From: a virus
Strand: one strand, 5' to 3'
DNA: 24,687 nt
Virus record (IMG/VR): IMGVR_UViG_3300000893_000007
Location: 1-24,687 of that record
Part shown: one piece after another, positions 147 through 24,687 of the stretch
How the letters are laid out: each line of letters starts with the position of its first letter
Position numbering within the stretch: the first letter of the stretch is position 1
The notes under the pieces: generated by a model
What the model was told of the DNA's origin: nothing
Seen by the model: only the letters and a program-made list of their open reading frames with translations
Database searches by the model: none
Made by a program: the position numbers and the translations under genes

Positions 147-416
147 TCAAACATTTTCTAAATAATTTTTTGAAACTTTTCTGTGCATTCCTGACACGTT
201 CTCGGCTACGATCTGATCGATTGCATAGTCGATCGCGATGGCCTGGTCGGGCTCCGACAAATCAAAAGAATTATTCACAGTCCTAGCCAGGAGTCCTGGG
301 GTATCATAACCTAAACGTGTATCGTATGCTAACCATTCATTCCATTGTGTGAACGGATCGAATGGATTGTCAACAGTAGTTAGCATGTACCGTGTTGTAG
401 TGTTATCAGCACTCAT
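147..416 (-). CDS. Small conserved phage protein, function unknown
   Basis: This is an 89-residue soluble acidic protein starting ATG two bases after the stop of the RNA polymerase-like gene, so it is very probably co-translated with it. It contains TTVDNPFDPFTQWNEWLAYD near the N terminus, then a stretch DLSEPDQAIAIDYAIDQIV and a basic tail. I recognise this pattern (TTVDNPF-PF--W-EW followed by a helical DLSE-DQ segment) as recurring in phages of Gram-positive bacteria, but no function is established to my knowledge. No membrane segment, signal peptide or metal site is visible. The ribosome binding site is weak (GTGAG inside the upstream gene), consistent with translational coupling. Confidence 0.85.
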   Translation of the reverse strand: MSADNTTTRYMLTTVDNPFDPFTQWNEWLAYDTRLGYDTPGLLARTVNNSFDLSEPDQAIAIDYAIDQIVAENVSGMHRKVSKNYLENV

Positions 417-418
417 GT

Positions 419-3214
419 CTACATCTCACTGATAGCAGCACTGACAGTAGACTGTGATACACCCAACTGTTGTGCTATCTCTGCTTGCGTAAACCCACTA
501 TCAGCCATAACCTTAGCACGTGTACGTTCAGTAGCAGTAAGCTTAGGCTGTGACTTAGGTGTTGCTAGCTTCTTTACTGTCTCCATGTCGGCGTGTCTAA
601 GTACTTCTTCCAACATGTTGTGACTGACAGCGCCTGCTTGTATTGCATTCCACTCAGCCTGTGTTATGTCAATAGCGTGCTTCTTTGCGCCAGTTCTAAT
701 CCTTGCTTCAGTCAATGCTTGATTCTTGATCTTCTTGACGTCTGCTTCTTCCATGCCGGGATTAGCCTGGCGGCGTTGAGAAACCTGGGCGGCTGCCAAA
801 GCCTGGGCTTGTCTTTCAAGAGGCGCATTCTTTTTGGCGGCGTTTAATTTAGCACGGAGACTATCAACTTCATTGGCATGGGTCTTTGCTGCAGACGGGG
901 ATCTTTTAACATGTGGAGTTTCTAGAGCCGTCTTCCTTGCGGTATTGGCCAATGCCTTAAGTCTATTGGAATAGCCAGCATAGATCAGTTCCATAGGCGT
1001 GCCTGGCTCAGACACCAATGATCTAGCATCTTCAGCCAATGCAAGACGCTTGGTTATTGATTGAGCAGGCTTTGTTCTACCTGTGGAAACATAGGTCACT
1101 TTTCCAGTGGTGGGGTCTACTTTACGAACGCGTTCCTGAATCTGGCGCCCGGTTTCAACATAGACCTTCTTACCAGTAAGTGGATCTACTGGTCCGCCTT
1201 GAGATGCTTTCCTCAGCACACGTTCAGGAACACGGACTTCAGCATTGGCTCGAGATAGCAGAGTAGATGCGCCGCCAGGACGTTTGCCTGATGGCTTCGG
1301 CTGATACTTTGCTCTCAGTTGAGCAATACCATTGTCTCGTTCAGATGCTTTGAAATCAAGAGCATGTTTCTCTGAATCAATGACAACCATTGAATGACGA
1401 ACAGCACGAGCCAACTCTTCTGGCCCAGCACCATGAATCGTCATGTCAGTGATCAGATTAGAGATCTTGCCCATCTCCTGTTGTTTGCGTGCAGGAATTG
1501 GGCGATCGCCGTTCTTGAATTCAGTCTTGCGAGTCTTTGCGTTGTATACACCACCATCAATTGTACGCATTCCATCGTGTGGAGCATACGAATGATGTGG
1601 ATCGAATCCTTTCAAACCATCAAGAGCAGGAGTACTTTTGACAGTTCCCTTGTTGTTCGGGATCAGGATTACCGTATCACCATCAAAGTCTGCGCCAGAC
1701 AAACGTTCTGCCACTGAATGATGAATACCGATTGCATCCTTGGCGTGTGGGCCCAACAACTTACGAGCTTCCGGATTACGGTTGTTTACTGTAAGCTGGG
1801 GGATTTCAAACGTGCCACCATGCGGATACCTGATCAATGCAACACGATCGCCATTCTTCAGGTTAGGGGCATGAACTTCACCAGGTTTCATCGAACTGAT
1901 GGGAAGCAACACCTTTGTCGATTGGCCTGGCAAAGCGGCGGCTCGAAGATGAACAGCAGCTGAATCGGTTTCATCAGCAAACGTTTCAAGCAGCTTCTTA
2001 CGAACCGTTGGATTCGTAAGTTTCGTCAGCTTATCGTACTCTTGCAGTCGATGCTCAGCAGTAAGCGCCAATTGAGAACTGGCAAACTTAGGACTTTGCT
2101 TCGACAACATCTGCGAAGCAAGAGTCTTTGACCACGTATCCCAAGAACCTTCGACACCTGATCCTTCTTTGGTAGGGCTACCAACAATGTTGAGTGCTGA
2201 AATCACCTTACCATCAGGACCATGAACTTGTCGAACGATCGATCCAAATGGCAGAATCGGATCGCTGGACAGTTCTTTCATGGCATCCTTCTTGCGACCA
2301 GTATTCGACTTATTGGTGTTGAATACTATGTCGGTTCCCTTAGGCAGATCATCTTTGTAAAGAGCCATGCCTTTGAGATAGTGCGTGCCATCTACGGCAA
2401 TACGAACTTGTCCATAGTTCTTACCACCAAGCGAAAGATCTTTTACACCTGGACGAATGTAGATAACCCCATCTGCTTTGCCGCCACCATCTTCTGCATA
2501 GTTGATGGCAATTCGCCTAGAGCTTACTTGAATTGGATCTTGGACTTTGAGAAACGAGCGACCGTAATCCTCTGAGTAATCGTTGATCAACTGGATCTGC
2601 GAACGATTACGTTGAACTTCACTCAGAGTAGTGCCAGGAATAGCCAGCACTTTACGAGTAGTGTACTTACCCGTTCCAAGCTGTAGATTCTGAATATTGT
2701 GAACCGGATAGCCCTGCTCTTGCAGAACGGCAACAGCAGTCTTGAATCGAGATTCGGTAATGCCGAGCTGACTTGCGTTGCCTTCGCCGATGTCGACATA
2801 CTTCTTCTGATCGACCTGATCCTTGATCATCTTGGACGTCGTCATCAGAGCATCAGCATTGTCAGCAGCGCCAGGTGCAAGTAGAGCTCTTACAGATGAT
2901 TCGCCAGCCAAGCCCATGCGTTGAGCGATCTTACCGTTTGAAAGACCTTTCTCCTTCAAACGTTGAGCCATGAGAACTTGTTCTTGCTTTTGTGAGGCAA
3001 GAGCAATAGATTTAGCAGCACGAAGCTGAGTGGTAGTGATGCCACAACCTTCAGCAATCTGTGCTTCCGACATTCCTTCTTTTCTCAGATTCTCCACATA
3101 ATCAAGAAAGCTTCGATGACGAGTAGATTCTGATCTTCCGGAACCCCAAGGGTATCTTCCGCTACGCCGGAGAATGCCGTAATGCGCTAGATGATCTTCA
3201 TGCGTACGTATCAC
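419..3214 (-). CDS. Single-chain RNA polymerase-like protein with helix-turn-helix ends
   Basis: A 931-residue protein. Residues 506-515 read SGADFDGDTV, matching the catalytic NADFDGD loop of the double-psi barrel in the largest subunit of cellular RNA polymerases and the DFDGD loop of YonO-like and crAss-like phage enzymes. About 50 residues earlier GDRVALIRYPHGGTFEIPQL resembles the barrel strand that carries the NRxPTLH motif. Helix-turn-helix-like segments lie at about 36-66 and 79-112 and at the C terminus (about 895-929, TQAEIAQQLGVSQSTVSAAI). The N terminus carries HYGILRRSGRYPWGSG (11-26), a tag I associate with phage head-region proteins. The start is GTG, overlapping the upstream nuclease stop by four bases (GTGA) after GAGGAGG. 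Inferred role: phage-specific transcription of a gene subset, possibly by a virion-carried enzyme. Catalysis is not proven; the second barrel is not obvious by eye. Confidence 0.75.
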   Translation of the reverse strand: MIRTHEDHLAHYGILRRSGRYPWGSGRSESTRHRSFLDYVENLRKEGMSEAQIAEGCGITTTQLRAAKSIALASQKQEQVLMAQRLKEKGLSNGKIAQRMGLAGESSVRALLAPGAADNADALMTTSKMIKDQVDQKKYVDIGEGNASQLGITESRFKTAVAVLQEQGYPVHNIQNLQLGTGKYTTRKVLAIPGTTLSEVQRNRSQIQLINDYSEDYGRSFLKVQDPIQVSSRRIAINYAEDGGGKADGVIYIRPGVKDLSLGGKNYGQVRIAVDGTHYLKGMALYKDDLPKGTDIVFNTNKSNTGRKKDAMKELSSDPILPFGSIVRQVHGPDGKVISALNIVGSPTKEGSGVEGSWDTWSKTLASQMLSKQSPKFASSQLALTAEHRLQEYDKLTKLTNPTVRKKLLETFADETDSAAVHLRAAALPGQSTKVLLPISSMKPGEVHAPNLKNGDRVALIRYPHGGTFEIPQLTVNNRNPEARKLLGPHAKDAIGIHHSVAERLSGADFDGDTVILIPNNKGTVKSTPALDGLKGFDPHHSYAPHDGMRTIDGGVYNAKTRKTEFKNGDRPIPARKQQEMGKISNLITDMTIHGAGPEELARAVRHSMVVIDSEKHALDFKASERDNGIAQLRAKYQPKPSGKRPGGASTLLSRANAEVRVPERVLRKASQGGPVDPLTGKKVYVETGRQIQERVRKVDPTTGKVTYVSTGRTKPAQSITKRLALAEDARSLVSEPGTPMELIYAGYSNRLKALANTARKTALETPHVKRSPSAAKTHANEVDSLRAKLNAAKKNAPLERQAQALAAAQVSQRRQANPGMEEADVKKIKNQALTEARIRTGAKKHAIDITQAEWNAIQAGAVSHNMLEEVLRHADMETVKKLATPKSQPKLTATERTRAKVMADSGFTQAEIAQQLGVSQSTVSAAISEM

Positions 3215-4080: not shown

Positions 4081-4093
4081 GTTATAATCTGCG
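4081..4093 (-). promoter_or_regulatory. Shortened copy of the CGCA/TATAAC element
   Basis: Between the HNH-like and VRR-NUC genes the minus strand reads CGCAGATTATAACGG. Both conserved boxes of the dispersed element are present, but only 3 bases separate CGCA from TATAAC instead of 14, as if 11 bases had been removed. The -10-like box TATAACGG is intact about 50 bases upstream of the VRR-NUC start, so it may still drive the nuclease and RNA polymerase genes. It could also be a chance match. Confidence 0.35.
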
Positions 4094-13578: not shown

Positions 13579-14103
13579 TCAGATACCTACGACTTGGAGA
13601 ACGTAGGCAATCATCTGGTACCAAATCTCGACTTTCGTTTGATCCTCATCCGTGTGTGGCAATGGGAAAAATCCACCTTCCCCATTCGGTTTATAGCGTC
13701 GTTCTATAAGTCGATCGAGAACCTCGTTTATTTCAGCCTTCTGATCAGGGGAAAGTTCGATCCCTTCCATTGAATCAAGGCCGAGATTCTCAATCAGCTT
13801 CCATGCCCACCACTCAGGATCACCGCCAACTTGAAAGGCGACCCTGCGAGAGAGCGCCACCAACACTTCCAGGATTGAGACCCCAAATGGAAATGAATGA
13901 TGACGCCCTCTCATGAACTCACTTCTGAGCTCATATCCGTCGGCTTCACGATTGTCGTCGTGTGGAACCAGCCAGACGAATCTCTTGTGATACATTTCGT
14001 TTAACAGCCCAAGATATCTCTTTTGCCATTCCTCTTCAAGGTGACATTGCTCTACGAGCCACCTGAAATAACGAAATTCCCACTTGCCAATCTTATTCGT
14101 CAT
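13579..14103 (-). CDS. Conserved phage protein, 174 residues
   Basis: ATG start overlapping the end of the preceding gene by 11 bases. It has a tryptophan-rich N terminus (WEFRYFRWLVEQCH), then VPHDDNREADGYELRSEF, SILEVLVALSRRVAF, LIENLGLD and a C-terminal RRYKPNGEGGFFPLPHTDEDQ followed by VEIWYQMIAY. This combination (VP-DDNR--DG-ELR, ENLGL, G-GG-FPL, Q-KVEIWYQM-AY) marks a family very widely kept in phages and integrative elements of Gram-positive bacteria, still of unknown function. No membrane span is seen. It precedes the polymerase by 47 bases. Confidence 0.9.
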   Translation of the reverse strand: MTNKIGKWEFRYFRWLVEQCHLEEEWQKRYLGLLNEMYHKRFVWLVPHDDNREADGYELRSEFMRGRHHSFPFGVSILEVLVALSRRVAFQVGGDPEWWAWKLIENLGLDSMEGIELSPDQKAEINEVLDRLIERRYKPNGEGGFFPLPHTDEDQTKVEIWYQMIAYVLQVVGI

Positions 14104-14887
14104 CGTCGAATCGACGAGGATGCCTTCTTCGAGGTCGAGTAGCCGAGTGTCGAATGGTTCCGCTTACCTGCTCGGCATAACTGCCACGATCACGAATGAT
14201 CTCGAAGTCCAGCTCCAAACGCTCGTTCCGAATATAAACGATGTTGCTGTCTTTAGAGCCATGGCCCCAGTACGGTCCCGACAACCACTCAAGACCGAAT
14301 GTAGCATCCAGATCCTCTTCAATCTGTCTATCCATCGAATCGGCCATGACATCGTCGGCTTCGTAATAGGTGTATGTCACCTGCTCATATTCATGCTCAT
14401 TCTCCTTGAACTCGTCAAGATGAATGATGTACGGAGCATCAGGACTTCGTTTGGCAAGTTCGACTTTGTAGTCCCAAAGATCCATGGGCTCATCGTCGTT
14501 TCCTCTGAAGACGTTCAGAGTCGTTGGTGTCGGCTCATTAACAGGAACTGACGGACGAGTGGGCCTCTCTCTGATGATCTCCTCTTTCTCGACACGTACT
14601 TCATCGATCGGAGGCTTCTGCTGGCGAGCAACATCTTTGGCGTGATAGTGCTCACGGATTCGATGAATCTCATCCGCGGCCAGCTTTGAGTACTTGGTCT
14701 TGAGACGATGGTCGGCAATATAGAAACCTGCCGCAAAGCCCAGACCAATTCCAACTGTCACGCCAAAAGAAAGAAAACCCACATCCCTTCCCGTTATACG
14801 CCGGGTTGCGTCTGCGACTTTCTCGACTCCAACTGCCACCTCGTCGAGACCTTCGGCTGCCTGTTCTGCTAGTTGCTCAGTTGCCAT
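14093..14887 (-). CDS. Single-span membrane protein with conserved acidic C-domain
   Basis: 264 residues, ATG five bases after AGAGG and 19 bases inside the preceding gene. An amphipathic N-terminal helix (EQLAEQAAEGLDEV) is followed by one membrane span (about 38-57, LSFGVTVGIGLGFAAGFYIA), a charged linker, then a conserved domain: RSPDAPYIIHLDEFKENE, YTYYEADDVMAD, GSKDSNIVYIRNERLELDFE. The tail is Arg-rich then acidic. The domain with its PY-I--DEF--NE, TYYE-DDV and VY-RNE--E-DFE signature recurs in related phages, unassigned. The topology suggests the conserved domain faces the cytoplasm. A copy of the CGCA-N14-TATAAC element lies inside the coding sequence near its 5' end. Confidence 0.88.
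   Translation of the reverse strand: MATEQLAEQAAEGLDEVAVGVEKVADATRRITGRDVGFLSFGVTVGIGLGFAAGFYIADHRLKTKYSKLAADEIHRIREHYHAKDVARQQKPPIDEVRVEKEEIIRERPTRPSVPVNEPTPTTLNVFRGNDDEPMDLWDYKVELAKRSPDAPYIIHLDEFKENEHEYEQVTYTYYEADDVMADSMDRQIEEDLDATFGLEWLSGPYWGHGSKDSNIVYIRNERLELDFEIIRDRGSYAEQVSGTIRHSATRPRRRHPRRFDDDE
14793..14816 (-). promoter_or_regulatory. Dispersed element copy inside a coding region
   Basis: The minus strand carries CGCA (14816-14813), 14 bases, then TATAACGG (from 14798), matching the intergenic copies in both boxes and exact spacing, yet lies within codons 24-32 of the 264-residue membrane protein. If active, it would produce a transcript beginning in this gene and covering the next gene and the polymerase. 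Confidence 0.5.
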
Positions 14888-15789
14888 GACAGCCTCTCTC
14901 CTTCTTTATCTCGATCGATCAGATCATAGATAACGCCATCAACATTGAAATCGAGAAGAATCGAGCCTTCACGACCATTCACGAATTCCCTGAACTGGCG
15001 GTTATCATCAAATATGCCGAAATCGACATAGTTCTCTCCGTTAGGAGAAAGAATCCAACCGACTACAGCACCAGCCTTCGAGTCCTCAAATCCAAGCTCA
15101 CGATAGACTTCGTTCAGGAAAAGATGCCCACGGGATCGAAGAAGATCGTTCGCATAGTTCTGCTTACAGTTGAGGAAGATGCGGTTGTACTCCGGTTCCT
15201 TGGACCACGACGTACATGTCGGATCAAAGAAACGAGCATAAACTGAAGGTACCACATCAGCAACACGCGTGACAGTTGTTGTTTTTCCGTCGTCACGTAC
15301 CACGTCAACTTGTTCACTTCCGTAACGAAAGTAACGGTCTTCGTCCTCACCGTACTTCTCTACCACCCGACGGCGGTACTCATCGAATCCTTTCTCAAGA
15401 GCCGCATACGCAGCCATCAAAGCTGTGTTGCGATTGGTAAGGATCCGGTGGGACTTGGTCAGGCAAGCAATGGAAACAACACCCAGACCGACCGCCGGAG
15501 CATAAAGCTTGGTGATCTTCACGGCTGTCTGGACCTTGATGATACGAACGTCGTTCTGACGATCCTGCTCAGAGTACTCGCGGTGCTCGAGAGTCCGAGC
15601 CTTTTTGAGATTGTCTGCGCCCTCGTCGAGAACCTCTTCGAGCTTCAACGTGGCGCGACACGCAAGAACGGTACTGCCGACGACGCCGACAACACCAGCT
15701 CCGAATAGGAGCGTTGGTGAGCTCGCGTCGAGTTTCAAAGCGACTCGCCCAAAGTGTCGAGCGAGTGCGCCGGTTCCTCCAAACATCAT
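14869..15789 (-). CDS. DUF6353-like two-span membrane protein
   Basis: 306 residues with two hydrophobic spans (about 26-44, TLLFGAGVVGVVGSTVLA; and 95-112, YAPAVGLGVVSIACLT) separated by a charged helix. The C-terminal soluble part includes HLFLNEVYRELGF, VVGWILSPNGENYVDFGIFD and a beta-rich end (ILLDFNVDGVIYDLI). The layout matches DUF6353 phage proteins and the shorter paralogue at 17602-18417. Two ATGs are adjacent; AAGGAG is three bases from the first and six from the second (15786), so the second may be used. The function is unknown; a membrane-anchored scaffold or exclusion factor is possible but not shown. The stop overlaps the next gene by 19 bases. Confidence 0.87.
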   Translation of the reverse strand: MMFGGTGALARHFGRVALKLDASSPTLLFGAGVVGVVGSTVLACRATLKLEEVLDEGADNLKKARTLEHREYSEQDRQNDVRIIKVQTAVKITKLYAPAVGLGVVSIACLTKSHRILTNRNTALMAAYAALEKGFDEYRRRVVEKYGEDEDRYFRYGSEQVDVVRDDGKTTTVTRVADVVPSVYARFFDPTCTSWSKEPEYNRIFLNCKQNYANDLLRSRGHLFLNEVYRELGFEDSKAGAVVGWILSPNGENYVDFGIFDDNRQFREFVNGREGSILLDFNVDGVIYDLIDRDKEGERLSWQLSN

Positions 15790-15796
15790 AGTCTCC

Positions 15797-15976
15797 TTAA
15801 AATAATCTACCTTGTTGAGGTGGCTGTTCCTTCTGGGGCAAGGGGTTGGGGTTCTCTAGATTCTTCAAATATATCGCGATGACCTGATCATCAGCCATTC
15901 GATCTACCTGCACACTCCAATTCTCGTTCGGGTACATTGATTTAACGGCATCACGCATTTGAAGAATATTGGTCAT
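15797..15976 (-). CDS. 59-residue conserved phage protein
   Basis: ATG three bases after the preceding stop, no strong ribosome site, so coupled translation is likely. The product begins MTNILQMRDAVKSMYPNENW and continues SVQVDRMADDQVIAIYLKNL with a proline/glutamine-rich tail. The pattern RDAVK-MYP---W---VDRM-D-Q--AIY is one I associate with very many Gram-positive phages. It is a small helical protein of unknown role. Its stop codon lies inside the ribosome binding site of the DUF6353-like gene. Confidence 0.85.
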   Translation of the reverse strand: MTNILQMRDAVKSMYPNENWSVQVDRMADDQVIAIYLKNLENPNPLPQKEQPPQQGRLF

Positions 15977-15979
15977 AGC

Positions 15980-16606
15980 TTAACCGACAGGAACAGGTTG
16001 TGGGAGATCAAGAAGATAACCGTCTCTGGTTCTCGTGACTCCCGAACCTCTAAGCTCTTTCCAGCCCCAGTCCTGATCAACGTATGTTGAGGCAATGCCA
16101 ACCAGTTCATATAGATCAGCAACCGTAATAAACCCATATTGACTCACCACCTCGTACATTTGATCAATTACGTTGTCCGCTTCTGCCCTCGACTGCAACA
16201 CGATCTCATCGAAATCGTGCGAGGATCTTGCTCTACGACTCATGGCCCTTTGCGGACCTGATGATCGTCCCTGCATGTAATACCGGTTATAACTCACAAC
16301 ACCGGTCGGTCCAGAAGGCGGAGTTGTTGATCCTGTTCGACGCCTGTATGAATCACCTCGTACCAGTTTCTCAAAGAACTGGCTGGTGACCTCAACGAAA
16401 GCATCCTGAGCTGCAGGAAGCAATACATCGAACACTACGAAGTTAACTGCACCTTTGGCGTCACCCGCGACAAAATTCTCCCTGAAGCGACTGCCAAGGG
16501 ACTTCTTACGCCGGATGGGATCATCTGAAGTAACGCGCTTAATATTCTTATCTTGAGTCTTGGCTCTATCTCTTATGCGGTTTGAAGGGTAATCCGGGAT
16601 ATCCAT
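15980..16606 (-). CDS. Conserved phage protein, 208 residues
   Basis: ATG five bases after AAAGGA. Regions in order: basic N terminus (YPSNRIRDRAKTQDK), SLGSRFRENFVAGDAKGAVN, a helical VLLPAAQDAFVEVTSQFFEK, a disordered basic Ser/Pro/Arg stretch with PTGVVSYNRYY, then a conserved helical domain (RARSSHDFDEIVLQSRAEAD, TVADLYELVG, DWGWKELRGSGVTRTRDGYL). The C-terminal domain pattern is strongly kept in phages of this kind but lacks an assigned function. Its ribosome binding site follows directly on the U-run of an intrinsic terminator, so expression probably needs terminator read-through. Confidence 0.87.
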   Translation of the reverse strand: MDIPDYPSNRIRDRAKTQDKNIKRVTSDDPIRRKKSLGSRFRENFVAGDAKGAVNFVVFDVLLPAAQDAFVEVTSQFFEKLVRGDSYRRRTGSTTPPSGPTGVVSYNRYYMQGRSSGPQRAMSRRARSSHDFDEIVLQSRAEADNVIDQMYEVVSQYGFITVADLYELVGIASTYVDQDWGWKELRGSGVTRTRDGYLLDLPQPVPVG

Positions 16607-16619
16607 AGTTGTCCTTTAG

Positions 16620-16653
16620 AAAAAAGGAAAGCGCTTGTTCAGCGCCCTCCTTT
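16620..16653 (-). terminator. Intrinsic terminator after the 93-residue membrane gene
   Basis: The minus strand folds AAAGGA-GG-GCGCT around loop GAACA with AGCGC-TT-TCCTTT (two G-U pairs in the middle), a 13-bp stem merging into a T6 run. It overlaps the stop codon of the upstream gene. The next gene starts only 14 bases beyond the run. Confidence 0.85.
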
Positions 16654-16933
16654 ATCGATCCGACTTGTACTCTGTTTTGTTGTTCTGCTGCCTGTTCTCG
16701 AAATTGGCGTACCAGGCAATAGCGCCATCGATCCGACGGTCAACGTGTGCGGAAGCACTTTCGGCCATCATTCCGCCAATGACAAAGCTGCCGATCCAGA
16801 CTCGAGCTTGATCGAATCCGGTAACGACTTCTGTGTTATTGACAATGATGTCCTTGGTGACTTTCGTGACACTCATGACAGTGGCGATATTTGCTACTGC
16901 TTTGATAAGCTTGATTTGCTCAAACGAAAGCAT
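16652..16933 (-). CDS. Small membrane protein, 93 residues
   Basis: ATG with TTAGGAG six bases upstream. The sequence MLSFEQIKLIKAVANIATVM continues to TKVTKDIIVNNTEVV, then a hydrophobic stretch (about 44-60, VWIGSFVIGGMMAESAS) and a polar C terminus with charged and Asn/Gln residues. The KVVKDII-NN motif and the GSFVIG---A segment suggest a family related to other small phage membrane proteins. It has its own promoter-like element 29 bases upstream and its own terminator, forming a complete single-gene unit. Confidence 0.82.
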   Translation of the reverse strand: MLSFEQIKLIKAVANIATVMSVTKVTKDIIVNNTEVVTGFDQARVWIGSFVIGGMMAESASAHVDRRIDGAIAWYANFENRQQNNKTEYKSDR

Positions 16934-16961
16934 AAATAACTCCTAAGTTTAGTGGGGTCTC

Positions 16962-16985
16962 GTTATATGCGATGTTTTATCTGCG
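16962..16985 (-). promoter_or_regulatory. CGCA-N14-TATAAC element
   Basis: CGCA at 16985-16982 and TATAACGAGACCCC from 16967 on the minus strand. The leader to the ATG at 16933 (GACCCCACTAAACTTAGGAG) nearly matches those of the copies at 20054 and 20488, so element, leader and ribosome site form one repeated cassette. The TATAAY box looks like a -10; CGCA is too near to be an ordinary -35. Confidence 0.72.
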
Positions 16986-17032
16986 AACTAACGGGGCACA
17001 TGGCGCCATTTGCTGTCGTTTAAGACTGAGCG

Positions 17033-17062
17033 ACCTTGGGGGCGCAGAGAGCGCAAGTCCCC
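17033..17062 (-). other. GC-rich hairpin after the chaperone homologue
   Basis: The minus strand reads GGGGG-ACTT-GCGC-TCTCT-GCGC-CCCCC, giving two stacked stems with a four-base bulge, starting about 10 bases after the stop codon at 17071. No U-run follows, so it is not a standard intrinsic terminator; it may stabilise the 3' end or isolate the next unit. Confidence 0.5.
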
Positions 17063-17070
17063 CTTGAAGC

Positions 17071-17592
17071 TTACATCTCATCGATAACGATTTCTCCAGC
17101 CACTATCTTCTCTGTGAGTTCCTTCATATCGGGATAGTTTCGTGCTTCAACCTCGGTCATATGTCTTGGTTCGGGTTTTGGCTTAGCCTGCGTGTCATCC
17201 GTTGCCCCCAACTCAGCCATCTGCTCCACAAAGCCAGCAGGCATGATGCCGTTGAAGAACTCGATCGCAGAATCCGGATCAGTGAAGAAGCTCATCATCA
17301 TCTCGGAATATGCTTCCGATGACATGAACTTCTCGCGCTTCTCTTCGTTCTTGATGAATCGCTTTCCGTCAATCGACTTCTCGCCATACGACATCAATAT
17401 GAGCTCTTTGAACTCCTTGAATATCGTCTGGCTATCCCCTGAGTCAAGTGCCTTTTGCATCGCTTCGCCAAGGCCGCCATCAGGGTACTTCATCTGAATT
17501 TCGATCAACTCAGCTTTGGACAGATGGAAGAAGAAGTCCTCCGTGACTTTCTCTCCATTGAAGTCCGTGTACGTGATCGTCTTCTTGAGCAC
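17071..17592 (-). CDS. Tail assembly chaperone homologue
   Basis: 173 residues, GTG start four bases after AAGGAG. KKTITYTDFNGEKVTEDFFF, LSKAELIEIQ, ILMSYGEKSIDGKRFIKN and SEAYSEMMMSFFTDPDSAIE with FFNGIMPAG match the family of phage tail assembly chaperones that normally lie just upstream of the tape measure and coat it before tail polymerisation. Here it lies about 5 kb downstream of the tape measure, ten bases after a membrane protein gene. The C-terminal third is Lys/Pro/Glu-rich then helical. I see no slippery sequence leading to a longer frameshift product before the stop, unlike many such genes. Family membership is by pattern memory. Confidence 0.82.
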   Translation of the reverse strand: MLKKTITYTDFNGEKVTEDFFFHLSKAELIEIQMKYPDGGLGEAMQKALDSGDSQTIFKEFKELILMSYGEKSIDGKRFIKNEEKREKFMSSEAYSEMMMSFFTDPDSAIEFFNGIMPAGFVEQMAELGATDDTQAKPKPEPRHMTEVEARNYPDMKELTEKIVAGEIVIDEM

Positions 17593-17601
17593 TCTTCTCC
17601 T

Positions 17602-18417
17602 TTACCAGTTGTCTGAGTAATGCGGATGTGGATGACTTTCGAAGTCAACTGCTATGCACGCCTGATTATCAGGAGACAGCACAGATGAGATGATCACCTC
17701 TGGATGATCGTCGACACGCCATCCGACATAGTCAGAATATGGCGTAGGATCCAGCCCGATCTTGCCATAGAATGAGCTCAGAGAGGCATAGTCATGAGCA
17801 ATCAAGTCGAAATTGACATCGTTCATGGCTCGACGAATCTTCTCCACATTGCTCTTGAAATATCGACCAGTCAAGACGTCGAAGCAGAGAACATCTCCGT
17901 TGTCGACGATGACGACCTCGCGATTGCCGGGAGTGTTGCTGACCCGATCCTGAATGATCGAATCATGAACATCTACAGCTTTCCTCTCACCGAACTTCTC
18001 GATGACTTTGGCTTTGTACTCCTGGAGTGCTCTTTCAGAGATTCCCGAAGCAACGGTGAGAGCCGCAATCTTCTTAGAGGCCTGGTGATTCGCCATAACG
18101 ATTGCCGTGATTGTCGTGGCTCCGACGAGAACGGGCGGGATGTAGAGTGGCCATACTTCACGAATCTTCTCCTTCGTGGTCATTTCCACCTGATCAGGCT
18201 CGCGAAGATGTGCCTGACGTCCGACAGTCGGGTGTTTCTGAGAACCAGTCCTACGGCGCAGTTCTTCCTTTTCGATCAGCTCAGCTGCCTTGAAGGATGC
18301 ACGTCCGGCGAAATATGCAGTTGTCACCACACCGGTTACGCCCATCCCGGTGAGGATCGTGGTCTGATTGTCACCTGCGAACTGCGTCAGTTTGCTAAAG
18401 ATTCCTGGAAGCGTCAC
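17602..18417 (-). CDS. DUF6353-like two-span membrane protein
   Basis: 271 residues from GTG 18417, overlapping the upstream gene by 23 bases with only a weak ribosome site. Two hydrophobic spans at about 22-39 (LTGMGVTGVVTTAYFAG) and 92-110 (YIPPVLVGATTITAIVMA) frame a basic cytoplasmic helix. The C-terminal domain has DVLTGRYFKSNVEKIRRAMN, SLSSFYGKIGLDPTPYSDYV and ends with a His-rich SHPHPHYSDNW. This is the classical DUF6353 pattern (TGRYF-S-----A-----, FY-K-GL-PT-YSD-VGW) of Gram-positive phages. The function is unknown. A longer, more divergent paralogue lies at 14869-15789. Confidence 0.9.
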   Translation of the reverse strand: MTLPGIFSKLTQFAGDNQTTILTGMGVTGVVTTAYFAGRASFKAAELIEKEELRRRTGSQKHPTVGRQAHLREPDQVEMTTKEKIREVWPLYIPPVLVGATTITAIVMANHQASKKIAALTVASGISERALQEYKAKVIEKFGERKAVDVHDSIIQDRVSNTPGNREVVIVDNGDVLCFDVLTGRYFKSNVEKIRRAMNDVNFDLIAHDYASLSSFYGKIGLDPTPYSDYVGWRVDDHPEVIISSVLSPDNQACIAVDFESHPHPHYSDNW

Positions 18418-18625
18418 GGAGCCGCCTTTCTATATTCTCTAGAGCCTTCTTATCACTATCGGCGATTGTTATTGCTTCTATGACTTTGGCATTCGGCAAG
18501 GTGACACGAACAAAGCGGAGGAACATCTTATCCCTCCGCCTGTTCAAGTAGTCCGAGATCAACCTTCCGATCATGCCACCGATAATCGAGCCTACGACTA
18601 CGGCTACGATCCAGACTGCTGTCAC
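18395..18625 (-). CDS. Small single-span membrane protein
   Basis: 76 residues, GTG five bases after AGGA, overlapping the preceding stop as GTGA. One N-terminal span (about 3-22, AVWIVAVVVGSIIGGMIGRL) is followed by a basic NRRRDK stop-transfer and a soluble cytoplasmic region with a short beta strand and a helix (DKKALENIERRLRDAS). The topology is probably N-out, C-in. Function unknown; part of a string of membrane genes co-transcribed from the element at 18933. Confidence 0.8.
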   Translation of the reverse strand: MTAVWIVAVVVGSIIGGMIGRLISDYLNRRRDKMFLRFVRVTLPNAKVIEAITIADSDKKALENIERRLRDASRNL

Positions 18626-18750
18626 CGCTTCCTCATTTCACGGACGAAGACCCAGATCAGCCACAGACCTCCGGTAAGGCAGGTCAGCGTGCAATCCCAC
18701 ACGAAATTCCAGAAACCGTACTTCTTACGAGACGACACATACACATTCAT
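18622..18750 (-). CDS. 42-residue conserved membrane protein
   Basis: ATG with AAAGGA about six bases upstream. It starts MNVYVSSRKKYGFWNFVWDC, continues TLTCLTGGLWLIWVFVREMR and ends KR. A basic N terminus precedes a single Trp/Leu-rich span with a GGLWLIWVFVREMR end. This is a recognisable small family (YGFW-F--D--LT-LTGGLWLIW-F-REMR) in phages and bacteria, with no assigned function. It is the first gene after the double structured-RNA leader, and is coupled to the next gene (GTGA). Confidence 0.85.
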   Translation of the reverse strand: MNVYVSSRKKYGFWNFVWDCTLTCLTGGLWLIWVFVREMRKR

Positions 18751-18773
18751 AGTTATTCCTTTAGATTAGATAG

Positions 18774-18845
18774 AAAAGAAAAATAAGAGATATCCCGGAA
18801 CTCCTTGAATTCCGAGGTTGCCACTCCTTGAATGACAACTCTCTT
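18774..18845 (-). ncRNA. Structured RNA with two identical GGA-containing loops
   Basis: On the minus strand an outer stem AAGAGA/TCTCTT (18845-18840 with 18790-18785) encloses two hairpins, 18839-18817 and 18814-18796. Both present the same nine-base loop TTCAAGGAG on unrelated stems (GTTGTCA/TGGCAAC with one G-U, and CGGAA/TTCCG). A U-run follows (ATTTTTCTTTTC), so the whole also works as a terminator. The repeated AAGGAG loop fits a Shine-Dalgarno mimic or the ANGGA loop bound by CsrA/RsmE-type proteins. It lies directly upstream of the 42-residue membrane gene. Confidence 0.6.
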
Positions 18846-18847
18846 CT

Positions 18848-18932
18848 AAAAAATGGAGGAGTGGAACGCTGCGTATTACACTACAACATTCCAATGTCTG
18901 CTGCGTATTACACTACAACAAACGTCTCCTCC
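18848..18932 (-). ncRNA. Compact RNA with tandem repeat, closed by its own 5' end
   Basis: Directly after the TATAAC box at 18933 the minus strand reads GGAGGAG (18932-18926), which pairs perfectly with CTCCTCC (18861-18855) just before a T6 run (18853-18848). The enclosed loop has two identical 21-base copies (18900-18920 and 18868-18888, core TGTAGTGTAATACGCAG) 32 bases apart. If transcription starts near 18930 the product is an RNA of about 80 bases with a blunt-closed 5' end and an intrinsic terminator, either a free small RNA or an attenuator of the downstream membrane genes. Confidence 0.6.
18868..18920. repeat. Two direct copies of a 21-base repeat
   Basis: CTGCGTATTACACTACAACA plus a preceding G occurs at 18868-18888 and 18900-18920 without mismatch, with an 11-base spacer. 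Each contains GTA-N6-TAC, a weak dyad. The spacing of 32 bases is about three helical turns, suitable for two protein molecules on one DNA face; alternatively the repeats act in the RNA loop. Confidence 0.85.
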
Positions 18933-18956
18933 GTTATAAGCCGTGTTAATCCTGCG
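18933..18956 (-). promoter_or_regulatory. CGCA-N14-TATAAC element
   Basis: CGCA at 18956-18953 overlaps the last codons of the 167-residue gene; TATAACGG begins at 18938. It drives toward the two structured RNAs and the operon of three membrane proteins and the chaperone homologue. Spacing is identical to the other copies. Confidence 0.72.
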
Positions 18957-19449
18957 AATTGATCCGAAGCCCAATTCGTTCAAACTTTTCACCATCGGGA
19001 AGCGGGGTTCCATAATTTAAATGCTTTGACAGATCATGCTCTGCATAGCCATTTAATTTGGCAGCACGGCGTTGGCTCATGAACTGCTCGCCAGTACGTG
19101 GATTCTGAATGATCCAACTCGGAGGTCCTTGCCGGTTGATCTCCTTGATGATCGTTTGATTTACGACACTGACCGGGTTGAATTGCACTACGGCGTTATT
19201 CCCCGCCTTGGCAATCGTCTGATCTCCGGCTAATCCTGGAATGCTAGGCGTTGGAACGTACCCGCCACGCATTGCAAGATAGACACCACCGGCAAACGTT
19301 AATCCGCCAGCAATTGAAATATACGTCCACTTGTTTCGTCGAAAATGATCGCGAATTTCATCGATATCAACTTCCACAGTGTTCTCCTGATTAGTCTCCT
19401 CATCTTTTACCATCTTGACGAGGAACGACCTATTTTTGAATAACGGCAT
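18946..19449 (-). CDS. Membrane-anchored protein with NUMOD1-like DNA-binding tail
   Basis: 167 residues from ATG 19449 (AAAGGA about five bases upstream; an in-frame start at 19473 would sit in the U-run). A basic and acidic N-terminal cytoplasmic part is followed by one span (about 46-64, YISIAGGLTFAGGVYLAMR). The C-terminal domain IIQNPRTGEQFMSQRRAAKL, DLSKHLNYGTPLPDGEKFER resembles the NUMOD1-type helix-turn-helix of homing endonucleases (TGE-F-SQ--AA---G-----LS-HL-G). This would place a DNA-binding module on the membrane, either cytoplasmic or, if flipped, outside. No nuclease motif is attached. The span-to-domain link is rich in Pro/Gly/Asn. Confidence 0.8.
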   Translation of the reverse strand: MPLFKNRSFLVKMVKDEETNQENTVEVDIDEIRDHFRRNKWTYISIAGGLTFAGGVYLAMRGGYVPTPSIPGLAGDQTIAKAGNNAVVQFNPVSVVNQTIIKEINRQGPPSWIIQNPRTGEQFMSQRRAAKLNGYAEHDLSKHLNYGTPLPDGEKFERIGLRINSQD

Positions 19450-19470
19450 TAGGGTCCTTTCGATTTTGCA

Positions 19471-19541
19471 CAAAAATATAAAAGGAGAGATCTCAGTCTC
19501 TTGCGAGCTAGCTTCCTTTCGAAAGCGCCAGATCTCTCTCC
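19471..19541 (-). ncRNA. Hairpin leader closed by transcript 5' end, with U-run
   Basis: Immediately after the TATAAT box (19547-19542) the minus strand starts GGAGAGAGATCT (19541-19530), pairing with GAGATCTCTCC (19494-19484), 7 to 9 bp depending on register, just before TTTTATATTTTT. The interior holds CTTTCGAAAG, itself a palindrome. This could be an intrinsic terminator/attenuator or short free RNA ahead of the NUMOD1-like membrane gene, in the same architecture as 18848-18932. Confidence 0.6.
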
Positions 19542-19565
19542 ATTATAGGCTATGTAATTTCTGCG
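19542..19565 (-). promoter_or_regulatory. CGCA-N14-TATAAT element
   Basis: CGCA at 19565-19562 lies in the last codons of the 69-residue gene, with TATAATGGAG from 19547. It reads into the hairpin leader of the NUMOD1-like membrane gene. Confidence 0.7.
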
Positions 19566-19759
19566 AGATTCTCTCCGGAATTCCGCTTTTGAATACGGAT
19601 GATCGCCTCGAGCGTCCCTGCGTTCGAGATGAGAATTTGACGAAGCGACTCGAGCTCATTCAGAGTGTAGCTTCTACGTCTCCGCGTAAGCTGGCGCGCT
19701 GCGCCTTCAAGATTGGCCCCGAGTTCGAACAGCACAGCTTCGATGTCCAGGTCTTGCAT
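19550..19759 (-). CDS. Small helical protein, 69 residues
   Basis: ATG 19759 is preferred: AGGAGG lies eight bases upstream, whereas the in-frame GTG at 19768 overlaps that site. It is a basic helical protein: MQDLDIEAVLFELGANLEGA, then ARQLTRRRRSYTLNELESLR and a helical end (QILISNAGTLEAIIRIQK). No membrane span. It follows the terminator of the preceding gene directly and has no promoter of its own visible, so it depends on read-through. Function unknown. Its stop codon lies within the next promoter-like element. Confidence 0.78.
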   Translation of the reverse strand: MQDLDIEAVLFELGANLEGAARQLTRRRRSYTLNELESLRQILISNAGTLEAIIRIQKRNSGENLAEIT

Positions 19760-19776
19760 ATGGTTCACCTCCTTAG

Positions 19777-19814
19777 AAAAAGATAAAAGGAAAGCCCTTT
19801 CGGGCTCGCCTTTT
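19777..19814 (-). terminator. Intrinsic terminator with GAAA tetraloop
   Basis: The minus strand folds AAAAGG-CG-AGCCC around GAAA with GGGCT-TT-CCTTTT and then ATCTTTTT. It overlaps the stop codon of the 71-residue gene; the ribosome binding site of the next gene begins right after the U-run. Confidence 0.88.
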
Positions 19815-20028
19815 ACGACTTCGATCCAACGGTTTCCTTCTTGGTCTCAACCGGCTCGACGTCGATGATCTGGGCCTCGGCAACTTCCCGGCTCACCTGG
19901 CGGCGCAGGCGGATGTAGCGGAAGGTGCAGTAACCTGCAACTCCAGCAACAAACGCGCCAGCGGCAAGGCAAACGGGGTTGATGCGGGACTCAGTCTCTT
20001 CGACGGTCTCAGTGGTCTCGTCAAACAT
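19813..20028 (-). CDS. Small single-span membrane protein
   Basis: 71 residues from ATG 20028 (AAGGAG six bases upstream; a longer reading frame to 20085 would run through the promoter-like element and is rejected). Acidic N terminus (MFDETTETVEETESRINP), one span (about 19-36, CLAAGAFVAGVAGYCTFRY), then a basic stretch RLRRQVSREV and polar tail. Likely N-out, C-in. It has its own promoter-like element and terminator. Function unknown. Confidence 0.82.
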   Translation of the reverse strand: MFDETTETVEETESRINPVCLAAGAFVAGVAGYCTFRYIRLRRQVSREVAEAQIIDVEPVETKKETVGSKS

Positions 20029-20053
20029 GGAATTCTCCTTAGATTGGGGTCTC

Positions 20054-20077
20054 GTTATACGCCATGTAAATTTTGCG
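20054..20077 (-). promoter_or_regulatory. CGCA-N14-TATAAC element
   Basis: CGCA at 20077-20074, TATAACGAGACCCC from 20059. The leader CCCAATCTAAGGAG leads directly to the ATG at 20028 and is nearly identical to that of the copy at 20488. Confidence 0.75.
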
Positions 20078-20114
20078 AGCCTCATGGAGAATTGTCCCCC
20101 CGGGGATTTTTGAC

Positions 20115-20155
20115 AAAAAAAAAATATGAGGAGTCACGTTTGCGACTCCCCACAT
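20115..20155 (-). terminator. Intrinsic terminator with T10 tail
   Basis: The minus strand pairs ATGTGGGGAGTC (20155-20144) with GACTCCTCATAT (20135-20124): 12 pairs including two G-U, eight-base loop, followed by an unbroken run of ten T. It ends the single-gene unit at 20183-20464. Confidence 0.92.
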
Positions 20156-20182
20156 TTCTTAAACTCTTCTTCAGGCTTTACT

Positions 20183-20464
20183 TCACCTGGGCTTGATCAG
20201 CGTGCCCATTGCTCGCGATGTGATGACATTCACGTGCTCGTGGCGAATGATCAGCAGAATTCCTATCAGGTTTGCTCCAACTAGCAGCACGGTATCGGGG
20301 CTCACTCCTGGGGATTTCTCTTCCTCCCTCATTTTGTGTAGCTTGACAATGCCATCCAGCGTCTTTGCATACTGCTCGGATTCGACCGATTGCTCGCCCA
20401 GCTTCTCGAATGCGCGTTCCATTGCGCTCTCAACAAGCGTTGGCTGCTTGGCTCGGGTAAACAT
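20183..20464 (-). CDS. Small membrane protein, 93 residues
   Basis: ATG four bases after AAAGGAG. A charged helical N-terminal half (TLVESAMERAFEKLGEQSV, DGIVKLHKMREEEK) precedes VSPDTVLLVGANLIGILLII, a membrane span at about 56-74, then HEHVNVITSRAMGTLIKPR. The end pattern VSPDT---VGANL-GI--I---E--NVIT--A----KPR belongs to a family seen in related phages, unassigned. The coiled-coil-like N half faces the cytoplasm if the basic end stays in. It is a complete unit with its own promoter-like element and terminator. Confidence 0.85.
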   Translation of the reverse strand: MFTRAKQPTLVESAMERAFEKLGEQSVESEQYAKTLDGIVKLHKMREEEKSPGVSPDTVLLVGANLIGILLIIRHEHVNVITSRAMGTLIKPR

Positions 20465-20487
20465 ATAGCTCCTTTAGATTGGGGTCC

Positions 20488-20511
20488 ATTATACGCCATG
20501 ATTTTCTTGCG
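20488..20511 (-). promoter_or_regulatory. CGCA-N14-TATAAT element
   Basis: CGCA at 20511-20508, TATAATGGACCCC from 20493. The stop codon of the upstream membrane gene overlaps the -10-like box. The leader to the ATG at 20464 reads CCCAATCTAAAGGAG. Confidence 0.75.
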
Positions 20512-22690: not shown

Positions 22691-24687
22691 CTAAGTGGCA
22701 AGAGCACTTCTCAACTGTGACAGCTGGTTCTTCGTCTGCCTGTAGATCTCAATTTCGGATAGTGCCTCAGGCGAGTAGTTGTTCTGCTGATACGTGATCG
22801 ATGTACCGCCTTGAGCAGTCGTATCAGTAGCTCCACCGTCAGCGCTCAGCGTCGAGGAGGATATAGCAGATGCCTGGCCATAGGATACAGTTGGAGTAAC
22901 CGTAGCCGAGGCATTCAGCATATCACTCATCTGATTAGCGCCTTCCTGAACCTGAGTCAGATCCACTACAGGCGTGATCGTCGGATTGAACTCAGCCATT
23001 CCGCCAAGAGTATCTGTCGCATTGCTCAACGTGTCAACCATAGACTGAGCGATGTTCTCTATGGATTTAACTGGCTCATCAGCATTCGCTTCAAGACCAT
23101 TTACCAAGCCTTGAATGGTATCCACACCAATCTCATGAAATACTTTGGATGGCGAACCGATACCCAGCAACTTCTTGACTGCACCAGGAATACCACTTAC
23201 AATACTCTCGGCCTTGGATATGACTTTACCTGCAAGGCTTCCCATGCCGTTGATCATACCCTCACAGATTGCTGAGCCCAGATTGGCACCTGCTGCTATC
23301 AGTTGCGGTTCTCTACTTCGGATTGTGTTAGCCACACCATTGACAAAGTTGATAACCGCATCGGCACCCTTCTGAATCATCTGATTGGAACCGCTGGCTA
23401 TTGCAGATATGAACTTGCCGATAGCATCGACGCCTGCGCTAACCATCTTGCCGAAGTTATTGGCAATACCAGTTACGACATGAACAATCATATCGACGCC
23501 AGCACCAATTACCTTACTTGCACCGCTGCCAATAGCATTGACGAAACTTGAAATCGCATTGGCTCCGGCAGATATAACCTTGCCTATGGCGTTACTTATA
23601 CCACTGACAAGCTGTACGATGATATTTGCGCCGGAATTGATTACACTGCCGATATTGTTGGCGATACCCTGAAGCATCTTAGCCAACACCTGAGCACCCG
23701 CGGATACAATCTCACCAAGATGACTGGCTATTGAATTAAGGAAGGTAACAATGATGGAGGTGACTTGAGCAACCAGCTGCCCCATATTGTTACGAATACC
23801 CGTCAATATAGCCAATAGCATCTTCCAGCCAGCATTGACGATACTCGGCAGGTTATTGACGATCACCGATAGAGCTGCTTGGATAAGCGCGTCAAACGCC
23901 TTGGCAAGTTGTGGTGCCGCAGCAATTACCGCGTTGGCCAGCGAAACGAGGATCTTCCCGAGTGCTGTCACGAACTGAGGAGCAGCATTGGCAATCGAAG
24001 TGACTACCGTCAGCAGTGCCTGTACAACATTCTGCACATACACCGGGATTTGTTCCATGAAGTCAGTGAATGCCTTCAGAAGAATCCCGACTGCGGTAGG
24101 TCCGGCAACAGCAATAGCACTGAGACCTACTCCAATCAGAGCTATGCCCGCGCCCGCCAGGGCCAGGCCTCCTCCAACTAGAACTAGGGCGGCTCCCAGT
24201 GCCAACAACGCAGGCGCAACAGGCTCGAGTAGGATACCCGCAGCACCTAGAATGGCAAACGCTGCCGCAAGCGCGATCATTCCCTTGATTATGTCGCCCC
24301 AGGACTGACCACCCAGCTTTTGCAATGCAGGAGCAAGAATGGCGACGGCTCCAGCTGCAACGATTAGAGCCGCTGCACCGCCAATACTGCCCTGCATAGC
24401 CATCAACCCTACGGCAAGCACTCCGAGGGCCACAGCGAGGCTTACAATGCCCTTTCCGAGCGCTCCTACAGACTGTCCGCCCAAACTTTCGATGGATTTG
24501 CTCAGACTTGAGATAGCAAGCGATACAACCATCAATCCGGCGGCAGTAACTACCATGTTCGTCGGCATGACTTGCATAGCGCCAGCAATGATGACAAGCG
24601 CTGCTGCAATTCCAGCCATTCCCTTGGCAATCTGTTCCCACTTCATCTTGCCGAATGCTTCAACGGCTCGAGCCATAAGGTTCAAAC
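22691..24687 (-). CDS. Tape measure protein, C-terminal part
   Basis: At least 664 residues; the reading frame is open at the window edge so the N terminus is outside. Alternating hydrophobic stretches (GIAAALVIIAGAM, ILAPALQKLGG, GGLALAGAGIALIGVG) are followed by about eight degenerate repeats of 20 or so residues built as I-S-A-G-A-x-x-I-x-x-F-V-x-x-I-x-x (for example NSGANIIVQLVSGI and SAGANAISSFVNAI) and a Gly-rich SPSKVFHEIGVDTIQGLVNG, typical of tape measure proteins. A Thr/Ser/Ala-rich tail precedes the C-terminal helix. It sets tail length and may help DNA pass the membrane. It is followed by Dit, the normal order. Confidence 0.93.
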   Translation of the reverse strand, partial: LNLMARAVEAFGKMKWEQIAKGMAGIAAALVIIAGAMQVMPTNMVVTAAGLMVVSLAISSLSKSIESLGGQSVGALGKGIVSLAVALGVLAVGLMAMQGSIGGAAALIVAAGAVAILAPALQKLGGQSWGDIIKGMIALAAAFAILGAAGILLEPVAPALLALGAALVLVGGGLALAGAGIALIGVGLSAIAVAGPTAVGILLKAFTDFMEQIPVYVQNVVQALLTVVTSIANAAPQFVTALGKILVSLANAVIAAAPQLAKAFDALIQAALSVIVNNLPSIVNAGWKMLLAILTGIRNNMGQLVAQVTSIIVTFLNSIASHLGEIVSAGAQVLAKMLQGIANNIGSVINSGANIIVQLVSGISNAIGKVISAGANAISSFVNAIGSGASKVIGAGVDMIVHVVTGIANNFGKMVSAGVDAIGKFISAIASGSNQMIQKGADAVINFVNGVANTIRSREPQLIAAGANLGSAICEGMINGMGSLAGKVISKAESIVSGIPGAVKKLLGIGSPSKVFHEIGVDTIQGLVNGLEANADEPVKSIENIAQSMVDTLSNATDTLGGMAEFNPTITPVVDLTQVQEGANQMSDMLNASATVTPTVSYGQASAISSSTLSADGGATDTTAQGGTSITYQQNNYSPEALSEIEIYRQTKNQLSQLRSALAT

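Follow-up and report, generated by a model that had tools for sequence, protein, structure and literature searches.

YonO of Bacillus phage SPbeta is a characterised single-chain two-barrel phage polymerase, distantly related to the cellular RNA polymerases, that transcribes a set of phage genes; its discoverers settled neither its promoter sequence nor whether it needs a partner factor (PMC5467207). The gp96 and gp64 proteins of P23-45 are likewise single-chain two-barrel phage polymerases with conserved promoter motifs of their own (PMC10770324), and the non-virion RNA polymerases of phiKZ and AR9 are two-barrel enzymes whose late promoter element reaches the start site, with T-3 A T G+1 (TATG+1) in phiKZ and AACA-N6-U-R+1 in AR9 (PMC7598289). 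The DNA analysed here, a window of 24,687 nucleotides spanning positions 1 to 24,687 of IMG/VR virus record IMGVR_UViG_3300000893_000007, encodes a predicted single-chain two-barrel RNA polymerase of 931 amino acids (419-3214, minus strand; family phrog_4291) and carries dispersed copies of an element, CGCA-N14-TATAAY, which from its sequence context is nearly sure to be a promoter and is probably read by this polymerase and not by that of the host. A polymerase family comparable to YonO would thereby have an explicit 30-bp promoter and a predicted start base. The window polymerase shows no sequence similarity to YonO in a comparison with a single YonO sequence, and CGCA-N14-TATAAY is absent from SPBc2. 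In the element, as in the late promoters of phiKZ and AR9, position -1 is T or U and position +1 is a purine, whereas those enzymes are multi-subunit, their consensus sequences differ and AR9 reads uracil DNA (PMC7598289); the P23-45 polymerases and motifs are also different ones, one of the two polymerases being part of the tape measure protein (PMC10770324).

The element has almost certainly been described before in one group of phages. Gordonia cluster DJ phages Vardy, Conley and Mossy contain a 43-50-bp intergenic repeat with TATAAT, interpreted as a sigma-70 -10 sequence or a translational start (PMC9671010, PMC10868162, PMC11008172), and like the element studied here it is intergenic, includes TATAAT and lies in a central region of small genes with membrane-protein genes. 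In the polymerase search Conley lies near Gordonia phage Perkunas, which has nine exact copies of CGCA-N14-TATAAY. The DJ reports differ from the present analysis in covering one cluster; the fixed CGCA/ACA geometry, the polymerase, the place where RNA begins and phages beyond that cluster do not figure in them. A literature search that did not include the original ReqiPepy6 paper found no work that connects an element of this kind with the phrog_4291 family or with other phages, and no experimental work on transcription of these phages.

CGCA-N14-TATAAY has seven exact matches in the window, compared with 0.07 expected from dinucleotide shuffles. Six minus-strand copies had been picked out in an earlier, sequence-only reading of this DNA, and all of them are present and exact. 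Their invariant spacing of 14, also part of that reading, extends to relatives: among 47 related genomes and contigs, the distance from CGCA to TATAAY is 14 in 220 cases, compared with 1-8 cases for each other spacing from 6 to 25. Five copies had been placed before genes or small RNAs, and this too is borne out, with three before genes and two before structured non-coding RNAs. The element at 20488-20511 (minus strand, as are all the following; CGCAAGAAAATCATGGCGTATAAT), with a predicted RNA start at 20487, has a 23-nt leader to the ATG of the gene at 20183-20464; that at 20054-20077 (CGCAAAATTTACATGGCGTATAAC; predicted start 20053) has a 25-nt leader to the ATG at 20028 of the gene at 19813-20028; and that at 16962-16985 (CGCAGATAAAACATCGCATATAAC; predicted start 16961) has a 28-nt leader to the ATG of the gene at 16652-16933. 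The leader ACCCCAATCTAARGGAG, described in that reading as common to three copies, is near-exact at 20054 and 20488 and approximate at 16962, and is the ribosome-binding leader. The elements at 19542-19565 (CGCAGAAATTACATAGCCTATAAT; predicted start 19541) and 18933-18956 (CGCAGGATTAACACGGCTTATAAC; predicted start 18932) precede a putative small structured RNA and a putative 87-nt small RNA, respectively. Scores on a profile of the element are 38.9 at 19542, 38.2 at 20054, 35.3 at 16962, 33.4 at 18933, 23.9 at 20488 and 19.8 at 14793, and with the window and its nearest relatives left out of the profile they are 38.7, 36.4, 33.2, 31.9, 23.8 and 15.6 in the same order. The copy at 14793-14816 (CGCAGACGCAACCCGGCGTATAAC) is doubtful because it has the weakest score and lies inside the coding sequence 14093-14887, and it may be chance coding sequence; it is also found in a near relative (G003), where the gene is conserved. 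The seventh match (23555-23578, plus strand), in the tape measure gene, has no internal ACA core and no profile score and is therefore regarded as chance.

Judged by its genes, the window phage is a siphovirus of the kind of Streptomyces phage Rima, Rhodococcus phage ReqiPepy6 and Lactococcus phage 1706, with which it has in common tail genes, a DNA polymerase/primase of 1252 amino acids, a helicase, an exonuclease and the 931-residue phrog_4291 protein; no similarity of the window to named phages was found at the DNA level. Relatives retrieved via the polymerase show the same CGCA-N14-TATAAY pattern, and searching 45 genomes with the 30-column profile gives 384 sites, compared with three in reversed sequence. 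The consensus of the aligned sites is TCGCARAAWWWACAYGCCTATAAT followed directly by RRRA. The core first proposed thus stands but is too short, as the true core includes a T before CGCA, an ACA triplet that starts 7 bases after the end of CGCA, and RRRA after TATAAY. The sites are concentrated in the region of small genes between the tail and replication genes, with orientation mixed between strands in just two of the 45 genomes. Exact copies occur in the isolates Rima, ReqiPepy6, ReqiPoco6, Perkunas, LibertyBell, Count, StarLord, CapnMurica and Paella. Variants in the same register are found in Mudcat (TCGCG), in Scap1 and Pippin15 (mostly TATAGT or TTTAAT), in 1706 and CHPC971 (yCACATGTTTTACAYRYRCTATAGT), in P078 (WTTTAWGTTTTACATACCCTATAAT, with the distal element TTTTA) and in FP_oengus (ACGCGAAAAATACAGCCTCCTTTAT), where CGCG, the spacing and a starting purine are retained in 15 copies but the hexamer is mostly CTTTAT. 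The natural variants CGCG, TTTTA, yCACA and CTTTAT are available for swap tests.

What follows the elements strongly supports the promoter reading. A ribosome site and a start codon with an open frame occur within 90 nt after 272 of the 384 sites (71%), compared with 20% of random positions, and the median leader of these elements is 28 nt; frequent placement at random with no link to gene starts, which the sequence-only reading had named as evidence against itself, is not what is seen. In Rima, 10 of 12 sites stand 21-33 nt before annotated small genes and the remaining two overlap apparently misannotated starts. Annotated starts lie in or upstream of an element in Scap1 (L095; 23389 and 23702), Rima (L094; 27046 and 34085) and ReqiPepy6 (L096; 40228), and the true start codon is therefore probably downstream. 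Some elements precede tRNAs (ReqiPepy6, 41206) or small RNAs with terminators. For tRNA-like genes behind the element in related genomes (for example G050, 16158; G056, 36945; a site in G073), leader and trailer are mutually complementary, so that the tRNA would be capped by a terminator stem. In 22 genomes an element stands some 880-1600 nt upstream of the polymerase, before the nuclease-exonuclease-polymerase operon, and is often followed by GGGATAGAAT; this position suggests positive feedback, and element and leader together possibly form an autoregulatory leader. A possible decayed copy in the window, TATAAC (4081-4086, minus strand) followed by GGAAGGACATAGAAT, is upstream of the nuclease-exonuclease-polymerase genes and falls below the profile threshold.

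The RNA very probably starts at +1, the first base after TATAAY, to judge from the predicted folds of the small RNAs. The 5′ arm of their terminator closing stems begins at exactly this base, and transcripts therefore most likely start there. A stem ruler was applied to 157 non-redundant sites with a T tract, in which an 8-mer is compared with the complement just before the tract and partners are permuted 500 times. The 8-mer from +1 is complementary to the terminator arm in 25 cases compared with 2.7 expected (maximum of eight among the 500 permutations), and the count drops upstream to 12 at position 0 and three at -3. A purine is found at +1 in all 384 of 384 sites and T at -1 in 367 of 384, both being favoured by the profile itself. 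The putative 87-nt RNA (18846-18932, minus strand) consists of two hairpins on the same 20-nt repeat, GTTGTAGTGTAATACGCAGC, followed by a T tract; it folds with -36.4 kcal/mol (z -6.47) and has a closing stem, GGAGGAG:CUCCUCC, from exactly +1, which is gone when the fold is started 6 nt further on, where a sigma-70 -10 would place the first base. The putative small RNA at 19471-19541 (minus strand), which has a T-rich 3′ end and lies upstream of the gene at 18946-19449, has a nine-pair closing stem from +4 with weak predicted pairs at +1 and +2, and its z of -1.85 is not significant alone. The initial view of TATAAY as a -10, with RNA beginning 6-8 bases further on, is not supported: the stem ruler, the lack of a -35 and the CTTTAT of FP_oengus point instead to the first purine behind TATAAY. 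The small RNAs of the window have no Rfam match; the 87-nt RNA resembles a display or decoy RNA, and a related phage contig (G047) contains a Pistol ribozyme (Rfam RF02679, over the gathering score) at L382:9879-9933 on the minus strand.

The polymerase matches the phrog_4291 profile with 1230 bits across residues 3-930 of 931, with the active-site motif DFDGD at 509-513, and the D-F/Y-D-G-D motif is conserved in 27 polymerase sequences. Helix-turn-helix (HTH) units are predicted at two N-terminal positions (about 36-72 and 80-114) and one C-terminal position (889-928). The family has 250 database phage records, usually annotated merely as an HTH protein or as an 'RNA-dependent RNA polymerase'. 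The only significant solved-structure match of the polymerase model is QDE-1 (E 2e-6), which differs in being a eukaryotic RNA-interference enzyme and is about 11% identical to the window polymerase. QDE-1 is not known to have a fused HTH or a promoter.

The element tracks with the gene of the DFDGD protein, as the sequence-only reading had proposed to check, both in isolates and in a wider scan, although the association is confounded by shared descent. The element or a variant in the same register occurs in 16 of the 16 polymerase-carrying isolates examined and in none of four phages that infect related hosts and do not encode the polymerase (ReqiPine5, phiC31, ArV1 and Min1). In an unbiased scan of IMG/VR, CGCAN6ACATN4TATAAT was sought in 2.9 million viral contigs, with the same pattern containing one extra spacing base as control. 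Among the matches listed, phrog_4291 is encoded by 26 of 42 contigs of at least 30 kb with the element, compared with none of 25 with the extra base (Fisher p 7e-8). Three of the 16 element contigs without the polymerase, again among the matches listed, are probably fragments, since they encode the DNA polymerase of the family; the others may have matched by chance, given the great size of the collection. The core set of the complete genomes comprises genes for structure and replication together with the polymerase and phrog_4303, an 89-residue protein encoded directly downstream of the polymerase (147-416, minus strand) and conserved in every complete relative examined. Besides the polymerase, no sigma or HTH domain was recognised among the core genes of the window, and no activator or repressor was recognised among them, though an unrecognisable factor may be present; phrog_4303 is a candidate for one and a possible accessory factor.

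We infer that this polymerase, and not that of the host, recognises the element, and likewise which of its domains do so. The first polymerase molecules would be made by the host polymerase. The fused DNA-binding domains of the phage enzyme would then read TCGCA (-25 to -21) and ACA (-14 to -12), which would lie about one helical turn apart on the same DNA face, while TATAAT (-6 to -1) would melt and RNA would begin at the purine directly after it (+1). Between the tail and replication genes, the phage enzyme would go on to transcribe tRNAs, small RNAs and numerous small genes one by one; many relatives would also have their polymerase operon transcribed in this way, from the copy about 900 nt upstream. 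That the polymerase suffices without another factor is rather likely, a step below recognition by the phage enzyme as such. The fuller proposal is held with similarly measured confidence: a QDE-1-like single-chain polymerase with built-in HTH units alone and no sigma would read a promoter of ~30 bp, with RNA starting at the edge of a merely -10-like TATAAT, in one design that drives one-gene units, small RNAs and the polymerase operon in phages of Streptomyces, Rhodococcus, Gordonia, Arthrobacter, Microbacterium, Curtobacterium, Faecalibacterium and Lactococcus. If the polymerase does read the element, this would show how a cellular-type polymerase finds promoters without sigma, and it would offer a ready in vitro assay, a possible orthogonal transcription system for actinobacteria, corrections to annotated gene starts and many small RNAs missing from the annotations.

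Several observations weigh against transcription by the phage polymerase. Searches with the head protease and with the polymerase give the same counts in the main host genera, the isolates show no event of polymerase loss or swap, and relatives without the polymerase could not be found among them; as a single phage family has both the element and the polymerase in its core, correlation alone cannot separate the polymerase from other core genes. The AlphaFold model of the polymerase is mediocre (pLDDT 74.6, pTM 0.49), and the QDE-1 match superposes poorly (TM 0.3). P078, with its TTTTA distal element, lacks ESSVR, the proposed recognition helix that many phages with CGCA have in their second HTH, but the covariation of HTH and DNA sequence is suggestive at most because G039 retains CGCA although its helix differs. 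Finally, TATAAT is a perfect sigma -10 as well, and the host polymerase could still be using it.

Two readers had been proposed for the element, the phage RNA polymerase, which is favoured, and a host holoenzyme helped by a phage factor, which is less so. In the latter case the elements would be middle promoters of the host polymerase: TATAAY would serve as a genuine -10, and an altered sigma factor or a phage activator would bind CGCA near -30. MotA and AsiA act this way at the middle promoters of phage T4, and CGCA is placed as a T4-type -30 box. Besides the perfect -10, this alternative finds support in the Gordonia DJ reports, which name a sigma-70 -10 (PMC9671010, PMC10868162). However, the small-RNA stems require bases +1 to +6, purines are conserved directly after TATAAT, and, the polymerase apart, no sigma or activator domain was recognised in the core genes of the window. 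A-11, the base flipped out by sigma-70 region 2 (PMC7598289), and T-7 are both kept in most genomes, whereas FP_oengus, with hexamers that mostly read CTTTAT, lacks A-11. Middle promoters of this type are therefore improbable.

Far less probable still are plain host sigma-70 promoters spread by local duplication, as proposed for Vardy and Conley. The TATAAT hexamer and the copies before genes agree with such promoters, but among the profile sites a TTGACA-like -35 at 16-18 bp from the hexamer is not enriched and if anything depleted, and no extended -10 TGn stands directly before the hexamer in the aligned sites. CGCA and ACA moreover stay invariant and keep their distances in phages of both Actinobacteria and Firmicutes, and the element is absent from the polymerase-less phages of related hosts. 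Stoperators, repressor sites that halt transcription as in cluster A mycobacteriophages, would also be asymmetric, oriented with transcription and mostly intergenic, but are very unlikely here, since the elements precede complete units including small RNAs and tRNAs with folded 5′ ends that begin at the element edge, and no core gene is a recognised repressor.

Apart from the element and the polymerase, the window contains two DUF6353 (phrog_2152) paralogues on the minus strand, at 14869-15789 and 17602-18417, the first of which is present in all 38 of the 38 large genomes examined.

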